The notes under the pieces were generated by a model. It worked only from the letters and a program-made list of their open reading frames with translations. It was not told where the DNA came from and made no database searches. Of a stretch of DNA of 64,000 bases, positions 17,881 to 36,451 are shown one piece after another (position 1 is the stretch's first letter; each line of letters begins with the position of its first letter). The DNA comes from Myxococcus stipitatus (GTDB taxonomy: Bacteria > Myxococcota > Myxococcia > Myxococcales > Myxococcaceae), in the NCBI RefSeq assembly GCF_037414475.1, contig NZ_CP147913.1, positions 4,092,001 to 4,156,000 on the forward strand. The letters run 5' to 3'. Made by a program: the position numbers and the translations under genes.

Positions 17881-18567
17881 ATGTCGCTGTTGAGGGAGAA
17901 CCCGAAGCTGCTGGAGTCGTTCCGCAGAGGGGAACCGGAGGCGCTCGCGCGGGTGTATCGGGCCTACTCCGCGCATGTCGCGCGCTTCCTGTCGCGCACG
18001 TACGTCACGCATGGACCTGGGGGGCTCGCGCGCGTGGGGCCGTTGGATTTGGAGGCCGCGCATCAGGAGACCTTCGTGCGTGCGTTCCGCGAGCAGGCGC
18101 GGCTGGCCTACGACGGGGTGCGGCCCTTCTCCACGTGGCTGAACGCCGTGGCGAGGCAGGCGGCGGTGGATGTGCTGCGCGCTGCGGGGCGTATCTCCCG
18201 CGAGGCGGTGCCCTTGGATGACACGCCGCTGGCGGAGCGTTTGGCGAGCAACGCTCCGTCTCCCGAGGACCGCGCGTTGGAGGCGGAGACTCGGGAGTTG
18301 GTGACGCGGTTCCTCGCCGGGCTCGACGAGGCAACGCGCAGGTTGGCGGACCTGCGCTTCGTGCAGGGACTTTCCCAGGAGCGTGCGGGACAGGTGCTGG
18401 GACTGTCTCGGCAGGAGTTGAGGACTCGCGAGGCCCGGCTGCGCCGCGCGATGACCGCGTTCCTCGTGGAGGAAGGCTGGCTCACCGCCGAGTCGCCCTC
18501 CGGCGCCCCCTCCGCCGCCGCCACCGCCGCGGTGTTGGCCCTTCTCTTCCCTCACTTCGTGCCCTGA
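17881..18567 (+). CDS. ECF-type RNA polymerase sigma factor with hydrophobic C-terminal tail
   Basis: A 228-residue sigma-70-family factor. Region 2 spans ~residues 18-98 (LARVYRAYSAHVARFLSR ... FSTWLNAVARQAAVDVLR) and region 4 ~140-198 (GLDEATRRLADLRFVQGLSQERAGQVLGLSRQ, then an HTH). GGGAGGACGGA precedes the ATG. Unusually, the last ~20 residues are an Ala/Leu-rich hydrophobic stretch (AAATAAVLALLF) that could bind a membrane or a partner. It lies between the RCC1 lipoprotein (13 nt upstream) and the anti-sigma gene (16 nt downstream), and probably activates its own operon when released. Confidence 0.88.
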   Translation: MSLLRENPKLLESFRRGEPEALARVYRAYSAHVARFLSRTYVTHGPGGLARVGPLDLEAAHQETFVRAFREQARLAYDGVRPFSTWLNAVARQAAVDVLRAAGRISREAVPLDDTPLAERLASNAPSPEDRALEAETRELVTRFLAGLDEATRRLADLRFVQGLSQERAGQVLGLSRQELRTREARLRRAMTAFLVEEGWLTAESPSGAPSAAATAAVLALLFPHFVP

Positions 18568-18583
18568 CTCGAGCAACCTGACC

Positions 18584-19480
18584 ATGGCCTTGTTCTCCTC
18601 ACATGTGGACCGACAGCTCGTCCACCTCGCCAACAACGGCGCCTTGCCGCCACGTCAGTGGAGCCGCGTCCTGCGTCATGCCCGCGGCTGCGCGCGGTGC
18701 GGCGCGCGTTACGAGCGGGTGATGAACCTGCGCCGCGTCTTCGCGCGCGACACCGTCACGGAGCCTTCGGGGGGTGAGCTGGAGTGGCTCGCGACGCATC
18801 GGCTGGCCAGCGTGCTCGACACGGTGGATTGGGAGTCGCGACAGGGGGGCTCCGGGCGTGCGCCAGGAGAGCTGCGCGGTGACGCGGGGATGGGCCGGGC
18901 TCGGCGATGGTGGCTGCAGCGGGTGCTCGAGCGGCGCATCGCCTCGACGAAGGCTCCGGCGCGAGAAGGTCGGTCGTGGAGGTTCTGGGACACGCTTCAC
19001 TTGAGTCCAATGAGTGGTGCCTGGGTCGCGGCGTTGATGGCGGTGGGGGGAATCCTGTGGCAGAGCCTTCCTTCCGAGACCACGGAGTGGGGCGTGCGTG
19101 GACAGGGCCCTGGGGCGGCGGCGATGCGGTTGTTCTGCGTCCCAGACAAGGCGGAGCTTCGCGAGGTTCGTTCAGAAGGGACGTGTCCGGCGGGTGCGGC
19201 GCTGGCGTTCGCCGCGGGGGCGCGTGCGCCGTATACACACGTTGCCGTGACGCTCCGCACGAGCAAGGGCGTGAGCGTGGAGGGCCCCTTTGAGGTGCAG
19301 GCGACCCCTGGGGCGGAGTCGGTGCTGGACCTCACGCCGCGCATGCCGGTCGATGGGGAGGTCGAGCTCACCGCCACGTTCGCGAACAGCGCGGCCGCCG
19401 CGCTCGCCGCCGCGAAGGGGGAAGTCGTGCGCGACGCCGTGCACGTTCATCACCGTGTGCGCGTGGGAGGCACGCGATGA
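18584..19480 (+). CDS. Membrane anti-sigma factor with HxxxCxxC zinc motif
   Basis: A 298-residue protein with His32-x3-Cys36-x2-Cys39 near the N-terminus, the zinc-binding anti-sigma (ZAS) signature. One transmembrane helix is visible at ~143-162 (MSGAWVAALMAVGGILWQ). The C-terminal ~130 residues are beta-rich and would face the periplasm (VAVTLRTSKGVSVEGPFEV, VDGEVELTATFAN). It begins 16 nt after the sigma gene. It most likely holds that sigma factor at the membrane until an envelope signal arrives. Its last 14 codons form the first partial copy of a 101-bp tandem repeat, and its TGA overlaps the ATG of the first small frame in that array. Confidence 0.82.
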   Translation: MALFSSHVDRQLVHLANNGALPPRQWSRVLRHARGCARCGARYERVMNLRRVFARDTVTEPSGGELEWLATHRLASVLDTVDWESRQGGSGRAPGELRGDAGMGRARRWWLQRVLERRIASTKAPAREGRSWRFWDTLHLSPMSGAWVAALMAVGGILWQSLPSETTEWGVRGQGPGAAAMRLFCVPDKAELREVRSEGTCPAGAALAFAAGARAPYTHVAVTLRTSKGVSVEGPFEVQATPGAESVLDLTPRMPVDGEVELTATFANSAAAALAAAKGEVVRDAVHVHHRVRVGGTR

Positions 19481-19581
19481 GACTGGCGAAGGACGGGGCC
19501 CTGTTTCGACTCCGCGCACTGTCGCTCGCGGGTGAGGCCACGCACGGTCATCACCGCGCGCACGTGGGGGGCTCGCGATGA
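19477..19581 (+). CDS. Small frame 1 in the 101-bp repeat (34 aa)
   Basis: The ATG overlaps the TGA of the anti-sigma gene (ATGA). It encodes a 34-residue basic peptide starting MRLAKDGALFRLRALSLAG, like the N-terminus of the caspase-like protein downstream, and ending HHRAHVGGSR, like the C-terminus of the anti-sigma factor. It lacks the hydrophobic core of a full signal peptide. Whether it is translated as a product or merely passes ribosomes on is unknown. Confidence 0.4.
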   Translation: MRLAKDGALFRLRALSLAGEATHGHHRAHVGGSR

Positions 19582-19682
19582 GCCCAGCGAATAACGGAGC
19601 CCTGTTTCGACTCCGCGCACTGTCGCTCGCGGGTGAGGCCGTGCACGTTCATCACCGCGCGCACGTGGGGGGCTCGCGATGA
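19578..19682 (+). CDS. Small frame 2 in the 101-bp repeat (34 aa)
   Basis: Same layout as the preceding frame, whose TGA overlaps this ATG. The start differs most from the other copies (MSPANNGALFRLRALSLAG) and it ends HVHHRAHVGGSR. Confidence 0.4.
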   Translation: MSPANNGALFRLRALSLAGEAVHVHHRAHVGGSR

Positions 19683-19783
19683 GACCGGCGAAGGACGGGG
19701 CCCTGTTTCGACTCCGCGCACTGTCGCTCGCAGGTGAGGCCGTGCACGTTCATCACCGCGCGCACGTGGGGGGCTCGCGATGA
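19679..19783 (+). CDS. Small frame 3 in the 101-bp repeat (34 aa)
   Basis: Third copy, starting MRPAKDGALFRLRALSLAG and ending HVHHRAHVGGSR. Its TGA overlaps the ATG of the caspase-like gene. Its first six residues are identical to those of the caspase protein, so this unit is the closest relative of the parental junction. Confidence 0.4.
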   Translation: MRPAKDGALFRLRALSLAGEAVHVHHRAHVGGSR

Positions 19784-21519
19784 GACCGGCGAAGGACGGG
19801 GCTCTGTTTCGACTCTGCGCCCTGTGGCTCGCATGTGTCGCAACGGGGAGCGTTGCCCAACCAGCAGACGTGCCTTCGTCGGGGCGAATTCCTGTACGGC
19901 GTGCGCTGGTCGTCGCATTCAATGGCAGCGACGTTCCCGGCATGCCGCCCTTGCGCTACGCCGATGACGATGGTGTGCGCTGGGCGGAGACCCTCCGCCG
20001 ACTGGGCGTGGACGTGGTCCTGCTCACCGTGCCCGACGCGGACACCGCGAAGGTCGAACGCAGCCAGTTGACCGACGTGCGCGCCCCCACGCTCGCTGCG
20101 CTCGACGAGACCGTGACGCTGTTGGCCCGGCGCAACTCGGCGGACCGCGCCATGGGGCTCACCGTCGACTTCCTCTTCATCTACGTGGGCCACGGCCGCA
20201 CTGGTGAATCATCGCGCGCCTATCTCACCCTCGCCGACGGACGGCTGGACCAGGAAGGCCTCTACTCGCGCGTGGTGGAGCGGCTCGACGCGGACTACGT
20301 CCACCTCCTGGTCGATGCCTGTCACGCCGCGGGCGTCGTGGGCAGCCGAGGCGGAGACCCGCAGGTGCTCACCCGGCTGCGTCGCGCGCTGGAACAGGAA
20401 CAACTCGCCGGCCATCCCCGCGTGGGTGCCATCTTCGCGGAGAGCAACGAAGGGGAGACTCACGAGTGGTCCCGCATCCGCGCGGGGGTCTTCAGTCACG
20501 CGGCACGCTCGGCCCTGATGGGAGGCGCGGACGTCAACCATGACGGGCTCGTGGAATACAGCGAACTCGACGCCTTCGTCGCCGCGGCGATTCGTGGCGT
20601 CAAGTCGCCTCAAGCCCGGCTCGCGGTGCGGACCTTCCCTCCAGCCCTCAGCCCCTCGCGGCCCCTCATCGGCCCCGCCCCCCAAGGACCACGGCTCAAC
20701 CTGCCCCCGGCACCAGGCGGCGCTCGCATCTCCGTGGAAGATGCCTCGGGCGTACGTCTCGCGGATGCCCATCAAGCCGCGGGCGAGACACTCATCCTCG
20801 CGCTGCCCGAGCGCGAGGTGTACTGGCTGAGCACCCCCCTGGGCGAAGCACGTGTCCGACGCGCCGACCTGGATGATGATTCCCTCCCGCGCTTCACGCC
20901 CCCGGAAGTCGCCCGTCGCGGCGCGGCCGAAGAGAGCCTGCTCCAAGGACTCTTCGCCCTGCCCTTCGGGCGCGACTTCTACGAGGGCTATGTCACCTCC
21001 TCCGGAATCGCCGCCGTGGACTTCGCCGGGCCCGCGCTCTCCGGCGAGCCCTTGGGTGTTCCCCACACGCTGGGCCTGGAAGTGGGCCTCACACTCTCCA
21101 CCGCGCCCCTGGGTGGAGACGGCATCGCCAGGGGACTCGCCCTGTCGTGGAGGATGCCCGGCCCCGGACTCCTTCGCTGGGGCGCTCGCCTCAGCTACGC
21201 CATGGCCCCCGATGCATGGGAGGGCAACGCCTCACTCCAACGTGTGTCCGTGCTGGCCACGGGCGGACTGCACGGACGAGGCACGCTGTCCTCCTTCGCC
21301 GAACTGGGCGCGGGGTGGTTGATGCTGGTGGTGGACAGGCCCGAGAGCCGACAAGGTGACTCCGCGGGACTCACGGCCCGAGCCACCGCGGGGCTGCGTT
21401 GGAGGACCGGAGACTTCGCACTGCGCGGCGCCCTGGGCGTGGACCTGGATTCGGTCCGCGTGGACGGCCAGCGCCGCGCGCGCCTGCTCCCCGGCGTAGA
21501 GATAGGACTGGAGCGCTGA
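19780..21519 (+). CDS. Exported caspase-like (C14) protease with EF-hand and beta-barrel-like C-terminus
   Basis: A 579-residue protein. Residues 1-27 form a signal peptide (LCALWLACVATGSVAQ). Residues ~38-275 are a caspase/metacaspase-type p20 fold: catalytic His138 in YVGHG and Cys181 in VDACHAAG. Inside or at the end of this domain DVNHDGLVEYSE (251-262) is a perfect EF-hand calcium loop, suggesting calcium control. Residues ~425-579 alternate polar and hydrophobic residues in strand-length blocks (LGLEVGLTLST, LRWGARLSYAM, LSSFAELGAGWLML, LTARATAGLRWR, FALRGALGVDL), resembling a small outer-membrane barrel, although the C-terminus lacks a final aromatic residue. Last gene of the sigma/anti-sigma run, translated through ATGA overlaps. 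Confidence 0.82.
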   Translation: MRPAKDGALFRLCALWLACVATGSVAQPADVPSSGRIPVRRALVVAFNGSDVPGMPPLRYADDDGVRWAETLRRLGVDVVLLTVPDADTAKVERSQLTDVRAPTLAALDETVTLLARRNSADRAMGLTVDFLFIYVGHGRTGESSRAYLTLADGRLDQEGLYSRVVERLDADYVHLLVDACHAAGVVGSRGGDPQVLTRLRRALEQEQLAGHPRVGAIFAESNEGETHEWSRIRAGVFSHAARSALMGGADVNHDGLVEYSELDAFVAAAIRGVKSPQARLAVRTFPPALSPSRPLIGPAPQGPRLNLPPAPGGARISVEDASGVRLADAHQAAGETLILALPEREVYWLSTPLGEARVRRADLDDDSLPRFTPPEVARRGAAEESLLQGLFALPFGRDFYEGYVTSSGIAAVDFAGPALSGEPLGVPHTLGLEVGLTLSTAPLGGDGIARGLALSWRMPGPGLLRWGARLSYAMAPDAWEGNASLQRVSVLATGGLHGRGTLSSFAELGAGWLMLVVDRPESRQGDSAGLTARATAGLRWRTGDFALRGALGVDLDSVRVDGQRRARLLPGVEIGLER

Positions 21520-27646: not shown

Positions 27647-28789
27647 ATGGTGCGAAGCAAGCGTGGATGGAAAGCCCTCGCCGGAGCCACGGCGCTCCTG
27701 GCCGCGGGGAGCGCGAGTGCCGGTCCCCCCAAGGAGCTCGAGGAGGCGCGCGCGGCCTATGAACAGCTGGCCTCCAGTCCCCAGGGACGCGAGCGCCCGC
27801 GTGAGGTGCAGGAGGCGAGGGCCGCGCTGAAGACGGCCGAGACGTCCTACAAACACGACAAGAACTCCACACAGACCCGTGTGTTGTCCTATGTGGCCTT
27901 GCGGCGAATCGAGACCGCGGGCGCGTGGGGCAACGCGAGCCTCGCCGCGCGCCAGCAGTCCGAGGCCCAGGCGGCGATGCAGCAGGCCCATGCGCAGCAG
28001 ATGGAAGGCCAGCGCCGTCAGCAGCTCGACGCGGAGGCGCAGCGGCTGGCGCAGCAGAACGAGGAGATTCAACGTCAGGCCGAACGGCGTCAGGCAGAGG
28101 AGCAGGCGCGCAGCATCGCGGAGCAGCAGAGCGCCCAGCTCGAATCCGAACGGCAAGCCCGCGAGGAGGCCGAGCAGAAGGCGGCCGCGGCCCTGGCGGA
28201 GCTGGACCGGGCCAACAAGGACCTGAAGGTCCGCGAGGAGGCACGAGGCACCGTGTTGTCCCTGTCGGGCAGCGTCCTCTTCGCCTCGGGCTCGTCGAAC
28301 CTCCTGCCCTCCGCGCGCAACCGCCTGTCGGACGTGGCGGACGTGCTGAAGCAGGGCGACAAGCCCTTGCTCATCGAGGGCCACACCGACTCGACCGGCT
28401 CTGACGAGCTCAACGAGCGGCTGTCCTATCAACGCGCCGAACGCGTGAAGGACTTCCTCGTCACGCGGGGCGTTCCCGCCGAGCGCATCGACGTGCGCGG
28501 CCTGGGCTCGTACCAGCCGGTGGCCAACAACAACACGGCCGAGGGACGCGCCAACAACCGCCGCGTGGAGATCATCGTCGAGCGCGGGGGCCAGCGCGCC
28601 GTCGGTGGCAGTGGCCAGCAGGAGTCGAATCAGGGCAACCAGCAGCAGCAGTCACCCGGCTCGAACCCGGGCCAGCAGCAGTCACCCGGCTCGAACCCGG
28701 GCCAGCAGCAGTCGCCCGGCTCGAACCCGGGTGGACATCACGGGACGCATGACTCGGATCTTGGCTCCGGCCAGGACGTGCAGCAGTAA
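27647..28789 (+). CDS. OmpA-family peptidoglycan-anchored protein with C-terminal decapeptide repeats
   Basis: A 380-residue exported protein: signal peptide 1-25 (AGSASAG), DUF4398-like helical part and long Gln/Glu/Ala coiled coil (~30-200), OmpA C-terminal domain (~205-313; SVLFASGSSNLL, EGHTDSTGSDELNERLSYQRA, RGLGSYQP, NNRRVEI) that binds diaminopimelate in peptidoglycan, and a 65-residue Gln/Ser/Pro/Gly tail. The tail contains QQQSPGSNPG three times in tandem. It probably tethers the outer membrane or an envelope complex to the wall together with the DUF4398 lipoprotein encoded upstream. Confidence 0.9.
   Translation: MVRSKRGWKALAGATALLAAGSASAGPPKELEEARAAYEQLASSPQGRERPREVQEARAALKTAETSYKHDKNSTQTRVLSYVALRRIETAGAWGNASLAARQQSEAQAAMQQAHAQQMEGQRRQQLDAEAQRLAQQNEEIQRQAERRQAEEQARSIAEQQSAQLESERQAREEAEQKAAAALAELDRANKDLKVREEARGTVLSLSGSVLFASGSSNLLPSARNRLSDVADVLKQGDKPLLIEGHTDSTGSDELNERLSYQRAERVKDFLVTRGVPAERIDVRGLGSYQPVANNNTAEGRANNRRVEIIVERGGQRAVGGSGQQESNQGNQQQQSPGSNPGQQQSPGSNPGQQQSPGSNPGGHHGTHDSDLGSGQDVQQ
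28643..28732 (+). repeat. 30-bp tandem repeat (x3) in the OmpA gene
   Basis: Three in-frame copies of a 30-bp unit (28643-28672, 28673-28702, 28703-28732) encode QQQSPGSNPG. The copies differ only at one or two wobble bases, which points to recent or ongoing copy-number change by slippage. Confidence 0.95.
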
Positions 28790-34949: not shown

Positions 34950-36451
34950 AGGAAGAGGTTCTCTGGCGTGGGCGTCACCGTCTGCAGCTTGAGGCCCGGC
35001 GCGCCGCTGGTGGCCGCCGCGCTCGCCGTGCCACCCGAGCCGCCGTTGCCTCCCGAGGCCCCACCCCCACCTCCCGGGACCATCGCGCTGCTCGAGCCCG
35101 TGGGGTTCGCGGACATTCCTCCCAGGCCTCCGTTCACATCGAGCGTGCCCGCCACGGAGGGCGCGATGGTGGAGATGAGATGGATGATGCCGCCCCCCCC
35201 TCCTCCGCCTCCACCCTTGCCCGCGCCGTTCAAGTTGTCACCCCGCCCGCCCGCGCCTCCCCGTGTGAGGATCTTGCCCGTCACCACCACGGTGTTCTTG
35301 CCCAGCAGGACGACGACGCCCCCCGCGCCGCCACCCCCGCCCGGGGTATCCATGCGCGTCTGTCCGGGGGCACCCGGGGCGAGAATCTGCCCGGAGCTTT
35401 CGATGCGCAGGTTGCCTTGCGCGAGGATGACCAGCGAGCCACCGCCCTCGCTCCCCGTCATGCCATCCGACAGCGCCCCCGAGCCTCCCCCCTTGGTGCC
35501 AGGCCGGAAGAGATGCGCGGCCTGAAGAGGCCCCAGGGCCTTTCCGCCGTTTGGAGCGGACGCGGCGGACAGCGCCACACCCGCCTCGGCGGAGCCCGCG
35601 CCGCTGGCCGCGCCGCCGAGGTCGACCTCGATATCTCCCGTGATGGTGACGTTGCCCGTGGCGCGGATGACCAGACCGCTCGGGATTCGCAGCCGGCCAT
35701 TGATGGTCACATCCGTGAACTGGAGATGATGCAGTCCCCCGAGTCCATCGAACCCCGCCACCGTGGTGAGGTCGCGAGTCGTGCCCACCGGAACGTTGAA
35801 CGCCCCGCTCGCGCCATTGCCATACATCCCCAACGCGCCCGGATCCCCCTGCGGACCTCGAGGTCCCGTGGCGCCCGTGGCGCCCGTGGCTCCAGGTGTC
35901 CCGGGGGTCCCCTGCGCGCCCGGGATGCCTTGTGTCCCCTGTGGGCCCTGCGTCCCTTGTGGCCCCTGGGCGCCCGAGCACACGAACCGCGTCAGCGAGG
36001 AATTGAGCTCGCCCGAATCCAGTGTGTTGTTGCCATTGGCATCCTGTCCGAACTCGAGCCGCACTCCCCCCGTGGCGCAGTTCGCGCCAACAGGCTCGAC
36101 GCTCGTCGCCACCACGGTGTTACGGCCCGCCACACCTTGGGCGCCCACGGGCCCCTGTGCTCCCGCCGGGCCCTGGGCCCCCGCGGGTCCCTGTGCGCCC
36201 GCGGGCCCCTGAGTGCCCGCCGGACCTTGAGTCCCTTCGGGCCCTGGAGCTCCCGTGTCGCCCTTGGGGCCGGCCTCACCGCGAGGCCCCTGCTCGCCCG
36301 AAGCGCCCGCGGGCCCTTGAGGGCCCTGAGGACCTTGAGCCGAATCCGAACCCTTGTCACAGGCCGACAGCATCAACAGCGCGGCCATCGGCAACACGCC
36401 CAACCCTCGCCGCCAGGCCCATGCCGGGCGCCCGTTCATGTATGTCGTCAT
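34946..36451 (-). CDS. Collagen-like repeat lipoprotein
   Basis: A 501-residue lipoprotein (LMLSAC, Cys31), start at 36451 with GAGGAG eight nt upstream. Residues ~40-109 and ~160-207 are uninterrupted Gly-X-Y triplets (GPQGPAGAQGPAG type), which form collagen-like triple helices. Between them is a ~50-residue module NTVVATSVEPVGANCATGGV...RFVCSG with two Cys, matching the DUF7151-type insert seen next to collagen repeats in myxobacteria. Residues ~210-500 are a Gly-rich region with beta-helix-like strands (NVTITGDIEVDLGG, NLRIESSGQILAPG). Probably a surface stalk or adhesin. Divergent from a tail-collar gene. Confidence 0.88.
   Translation of the reverse strand: MTTYMNGRPAWAWRRGLGVLPMAALLMLSACDKGSDSAQGPQGPQGPAGASGEQGPRGEAGPKGDTGAPGPEGTQGPAGTQGPAGAQGPAGAQGPAGAQGPVGAQGVAGRNTVVATSVEPVGANCATGGVRLEFGQDANGNNTLDSGELNSSLTRFVCSGAQGPQGTQGPQGTQGIPGAQGTPGTPGATGATGATGPRGPQGDPGALGMYGNGASGAFNVPVGTTRDLTTVAGFDGLGGLHHLQFTDVTINGRLRIPSGLVIRATGNVTITGDIEVDLGGAASGAGSAEAGVALSAASAPNGGKALGPLQAAHLFRPGTKGGGSGALSDGMTGSEGGGSLVILAQGNLRIESSGQILAPGAPGQTRMDTPGGGGGAGGVVVLLGKNTVVVTGKILTRGGAGGRGDNLNGAGKGGGGGGGGGIIHLISTIAPSVAGTLDVNGGLGGMSANPTGSSSAMVPGGGGGASGGNGGSGGTASAAATSGAPGLKLQTVTPTPENLFL

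Follow-up and report, generated by a model that had tools for sequence, protein, structure and literature searches.

Short tandem units that lie between the genes of an operon, each with a small open reading frame (ORF), are familiar from the mycobacterial MIRUs, of which the original report is said to be that of Supply et al. in 1997. MIRUs insert at start codons, the MIRU ORF is coupled at −4 nt, expression is probably little affected, and the maintained coupling is regarded as the reason why the insertion is tolerated (PMC12548453, a 2025 review). In senX3-regX3, depending on the strain, there are three 77-bp units, or two units of 77 bp and one of 53 bp (PMC4213456). Coupling at overlapping stop and start codons is strong, and the importance of the Shine–Dalgarno (SD) sequence varies (PMC6728339, PMC10666635); reinitiation efficiency differs greatly from one gene pair to another and with their SD (PMC6728339), and in experiments on other organisms a gap of ~20 nt nearly abolishes coupling (PMC10666635).

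In the 64,000-nt stretch of Myxococcus stipitatus DNA analysed here (the window), three co-directional genes on the plus strand encode an ECF sigma factor (17881–18567, first in the unit), an anti-sigma-like membrane protein (18584–19480) and a caspase-like protein of 579 aa (19780–21519), and a tandem array separates the last two. TRF placed this array at 19436–19832 on the plus strand, with a period of 101 bp, 3.9 copies, 90% matches, 0% indels and a score of 661. Each unit contains the 3′-end of the anti-sigma gene, an SD sequence, the tetramer ATGA and the 5′-end of the caspase gene, the last anti-sigma codons being the source of the SD sequence. The ORF list gives three plus-strand mini-frames of 34 codons, i.e. 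mini-frame 1 (19477–19581, with an ATGA overlap at both ends), mini-frame 2 (19578–19682) and mini-frame 3 (19679–19783), and ATGA is found at all junctions from the anti-sigma stop through the three mini-frames to the caspase start. The SD-like sequence TGGGAGGC (19464–19471, plus strand) lies 5 nt upstream of the mini-frame 1 ATG with an anti-SD duplex energy of −10.2 kcal/mol, and TGGGGGGC precedes mini-frame 2 (19565–19572), mini-frame 3 (19666–19673) and the caspase gene (19767–19774), on the same strand and with −9.3 kcal/mol in each case. Compared with a background mean of −4.0 and a 5th percentile of −9.3, the four chain starts thus range from −9.3 to −10.2 kcal/mol. The features reported by a first-pass annotation of this DNA were therefore recovered: a tandem array of three ATGA-chained 34-codon frames, mini-peptides made up of the caspase N-terminus and the anti-sigma C-terminus, and a coupling architecture kept through the array; its proposal that the array arose by tandem duplication of the junction is supported. 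The halves of the unit match the ends of the flanking genes. A second chain of 34-codon frames, linked by GTGA, is also present within 19531–19737 (e.g. 19633–19737); it has a weak SD or none and stops short of the caspase start, and thus seems to be incidental to the 101-bp period.

By description, the likeness to MIRUs is close: short tandem units stand between operon genes, the small ORF overlaps both neighbours by 4 nt, the senX3-regX3 units (77 and 53 bp) and the window unit (101 bp) all equal 2 mod 3, and unit make-up varies, between strains in MIRUs and between species here. Because MIRUs already show such small coupled ORFs, the earlier statement that no case of this kind had been described was wrong in kind, and a search of open-licence papers for a myxobacterial case of such an array found none. 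However, MIRUs are interspersed at many loci and apparently mobile, while the present array occupies one locus and its other matches in the genome or genus are weak and short; its unit consists of the caspase 5′-end and the anti-sigma 3′-end and hence is not independent of its flanks; and several lineages appear to have acquired their units independently. The array is set apart from the MIRU precedent in being flank-derived, single-locus and recurrent. With ordinary ATGA coupling (PMC6728339, PMC10666635) it shares the 4-nt overlap, an SD inside the upstream gene and a strong short-distance dependence, but there one junction serves each gene pair, whereas here as many as four follow one another, separated by short frames that are not conserved. 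In bicistronic design, too, a short upstream cistron supplies ribosomes to the following gene, but that leader is single and engineered (PMC5995908), whereas the present frames are natural, tandem and internal to an operon.

The sigma factor gene was assigned by TIGR02937 (E = 4e-21) and PF07638/PF04542. Its neighbour encodes an Hx3Cx2C zinc motif, a hydrophobic stretch and a C-terminal domain, and has no curated family match in Pfam or NCBIfam. The motif is present in 11/11 orthologues, with the gene beside an ECF sigma gene; the label anti-sigma-like (ZAS-type) is based on this motif and on gene order, and sigma binding is putative. The gap between the sigma and anti-sigma genes of the window is ~16 nt (18565–18584) and the anti-sigma SD is weak (−2.2 kcal/mol), unlike many operons of a paralogous copy (copy A, see below), in which the sigma stop also falls within an ATGA-type overlap. 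The caspase-like protein matches PF00656 marginally (21.6 bits against a cut-off of 21.4), its His138 and Cys181 are invariant in 20 sequences, and a PDB sequence search returned nothing useful. The AlphaFold model, of moderate overall confidence (mean pLDDT 70.7), contains an N-terminal signal-like helix (7–23), a caspase domain, an EF-hand-like segment and a C-terminal eight-strand beta-barrel (432–578, pLDDT about 84–95); Foldseek matched it to caspases/MALT1 and the barrel to NspA/OmpX/OmpA. The catalytic His/Cys pair and the caspase fold of a C14 caspase-like peptidase are both present, with activity predicted, and the protein is probably an outer-membrane-anchored, predicted caspase-like enzyme.

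Relatives of the caspase-like gene were searched for in 96 genomes of the family, and the named relatives matched in the contig scan were M. llanfair..., M. qinghaiensis, M. eversor and Pyxidicoccus fallax. Ten further species carry orthologues at 75–85% identity (copy B; 11 with the window), and a paralogue at about 50% identity (copy A) is present in many more genomes. An unbroken NTGA chain runs from the anti-sigma stop to the caspase start at 11/11 copy B junctions, six of which have interposed frames: three 34-codon frames in the window genome (G000), one 34-codon frame at 101-nt spacing in G061, one of 17 codons in G062, one of 53 codons in G056, two successive frames of 153 and 36 codons in G065, within a 107-bp tandem array that includes one decayed unit at 108-nt spacing, and one 144-codon frame in G058, containing an internal repeat of 222 bp (a length divisible by three). 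The other five (G059, G070, G072, G079 and G057, the last with its copy B gene divided by a contig end) have a plain NTGA overlap and no mini-frame. The G058 case could be read differently, because its insert is also open, and has a more coding-like GC pattern, in the caspase frame; this 431-nt insert (L007, minus strand) has no stop in that frame, which stays open for ~205 codons upstream of the ATG. At copy A, a plain 4-nt overlap was found by script in 51/53 loci, or 52/53 with L014 read by eye, and the only paralogous junction lacking an overlap is L047, a further caspase copy of G072, where the anti-sigma gene ends in TAG ~22 nt before the caspase ATG.

Comparison of copy number among relatives, as the first-pass annotation had proposed, gave 3, 1, 0 and 0 in the clade of the window, i.e. 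a difference between species, each represented by one genome. Tuning of protease output by copy number and random, phase-variable change of that number, both raised by this annotation, are hypothetical. The same annotation had allowed that the repeat might be absent from relatives and an assembly artefact. An artefact is unlikely, as the window genome is assembled as a single contig of 10.31 Mb, its units are not identical (5–9/102 nt differ between mini-frames), relatives carry inserts of their own, and a mini-frame that looks orthologous, again at 101-nt spacing, is present in G061, likewise a single contig.

The protein tree grouped the copy B sequences as (G000,(G061,(G070,G072))), (G059,G058), (G079,G057) and (G062,(G065,G056)). 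The mini-frames of the window and G061 are equal in length and both read FRLR where both caspases have FRLC, which suggests a single origin before the split; the mini-frame would then have been lost in G070/G072 and subsequently amplified to three copies in the lineage of the window. The inserts of G058 and those of the G062/G065/G056 group each seem to have originated independently, which brings the number of origins to at least three; this count was taken from the tree by inspection rather than by formal reconstruction. The second half of the G061 mini-frame shares only about 60% identity (31/51) with the anti-sigma sequence.

What is conserved at these junctions is frames, overlaps and SD sites, and the mini-peptides are not conserved. 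Between window mini-frame 1 and the G061 mini-frame there are 2 synonymous and 24 non-synonymous codon changes, compared with 13 synonymous and 9 non-synonymous changes in the caspase N-terminus of the same two genomes. This pattern fits selection on ribosome passage rather than on the product. The mini-peptides, into which the initial portion of the signal-like helix of the caspase is copied, might have a function of their own, as export decoys or protease regulators for instance, but with 24/26 changed codons non-synonymous, and with sequences and lengths differing in other species, we regard such a function as very improbable.

To what extent could chance account for the chain? Simulated tandem duplications spanning 19 real direct junctions kept the strict chain in 52% of cases when duplications were random, and in 99% for periods equal to 2 mod 3. 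The first-pass annotation held that a period of exactly 101 bp preserves the overlap at every unit; this period does give an intact chain, but the ATGA overlap survives any duplication of the junction whatever the period. The period instead governs whether a mini-frame runs as far as the following overlap and stops there, an outcome to which other routes also lead. Given 52% retention by chance, ‘exactly 101’ is weak evidence when taken alone and one array proves little; much of the pattern is expected from GC-rich DNA with TGA as the usual stop. Within the inserts, NTGA tetramers that serve as chain starts pair better with the anti-SD than those that do not (Mann–Whitney p = 2.4e-4, with repeat copies not fully independent), and the diverged G061 junction retains its SD (−7.4 kcal/mol). 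When decay of the inserts was simulated under neutrality, joint retention across the six genomes with interposed frames came to about 0.02 at lenient rates and about 4e-4 at moderate rates; these are rough products of per-genome values under assumed divergence and indel rates, for genomes that share history.

Based on these data, we favour, with a probability of about 0.6, an explanation in which tandem duplications of the coupled junction are tolerated because the coupling comes along with them, and ribosomes pass the array by termination–reinitiation. Local tandem duplication of the segment spanning the anti-sigma stop/caspase start overlap would have produced the array, each unit bringing an SD, an ATGA overlap and a frame open to the next ATGA. 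Since every unit carries these three elements, the array would be transparent to translational coupling: a ribosome finishing the anti-sigma gene would restart at the ATG that overlaps its stop, translate 34 codons, stop and restart again, and after three mini-frames would begin the caspase gene. A frameless insert of the sizes seen here (50–565 nt; ~300 nt in the window) would be expected to uncouple the genes, because a gap of ~20 nt almost abolishes coupling, and frames that close at the next ATGA would avoid this. Variants breaking the path would probably be purged by selection, leaving the peptides free to drift. A stop/start overlap and a nearby SD are found at each window junction, dependence on upstream translation being putative. 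We infer both that ribosomes use this path and that it owes its preservation to selection rather than to chance.

The strong SD of its own at the caspase start means that the caspase gene could initiate independently, and the open coupled frames might then be passive debris, mostly the default of junction duplication in GC-rich DNA. The 52% preservation by chance agrees with this, but intact chains at 11/11 copy B junctions, a direct overlap kept in 52/53 paralogues, the SD kept at the diverged G061 junction (−7.4 kcal/mol) and the low joint retention in the neutral simulation speak against it, and we consider it rather unlikely. Repeated SD–ATG sites could instead act as tandem leader cistrons that load ribosomes, hold a structured caspase start open and raise caspase translation, in the manner of a naturally occurring bicistronic design. 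The four near-identical SD–ATG sites would suit this, as would the SDs of mini-frame 3 and the caspase gene at the 23rd–24th percentile of accessibility (local folding of untranslated RNA); however, low values were predicted along the whole operon (median 0.0004), hence the accessibility of these SDs is not distinctive, and such a role seems quite unlikely. An origin from a MIRU-like mobile repeat inserted at the stop/start overlap would account for the similar layout, the small ORF coupled at −4 nt and the period of 2 mod 3, but the halves of the unit match the anti-sigma and caspase ends at the same locus and elsewhere in the genome and genus only weak, short matches exist. A mobile element is thus disfavoured for a flank-derived, single-locus unit, and we hold it to be extremely improbable.

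A rheostat would be a functional extension of the coupled-junction explanation and compatible with it: if ribosomes are lost at each termination–reinitiation step, the number of mini-frames would set the caspase:anti-sigma ratio and changes of copy number could be adaptive. Close relatives do differ in copy number (3, 1, 0, 0), arrays are restricted to copy B, and reinitiation efficiency varies widely by gene pair and SD (PMC6728339); but a strong SD at every start could hold output constant, and neutral duplication and loss predicts copy-number differences equally well, so that we regard the rheostat as unlikely. Its evolvable form for copy B, in which both number and length of the mini-frames set the amount of outer-membrane caspase-like protein per anti-sigma and recombination between units resets this dial, is a doubtful and tentative proposal.

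Under the coupled-junction explanation, the space between the two genes has repeatedly taken up extra DNA while their coupling persisted, and local duplication, without any mobile element, apparently sufficed for this. Moreover, relatives with 0, 1, 2 and 3 interposed frames form a natural series, which makes a direct test of serial termination–reinitiation possible. As duplication of a junction retains coupling about half the time in GC-rich genomes with TGA as the usual stop, the pattern may be common and overlooked.

Other repeats occur in the window. A 30-bp repeat in three copies (28643–28731, 98% matches) lies near the end of an apparent OmpA-like (peptidoglycan-binding) protein, probably in-frame in its low-complexity tail. 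Overlapping 18-, 27- and 36-bp repeats with a GGN-CCN rhythm at 35865–36232 possibly belong to a collagen-like Gly-X-Y protein on the minus strand, and a 78-bp repeat in three copies at 644–880 would be Gly/Asn/Ser-rich if translated.
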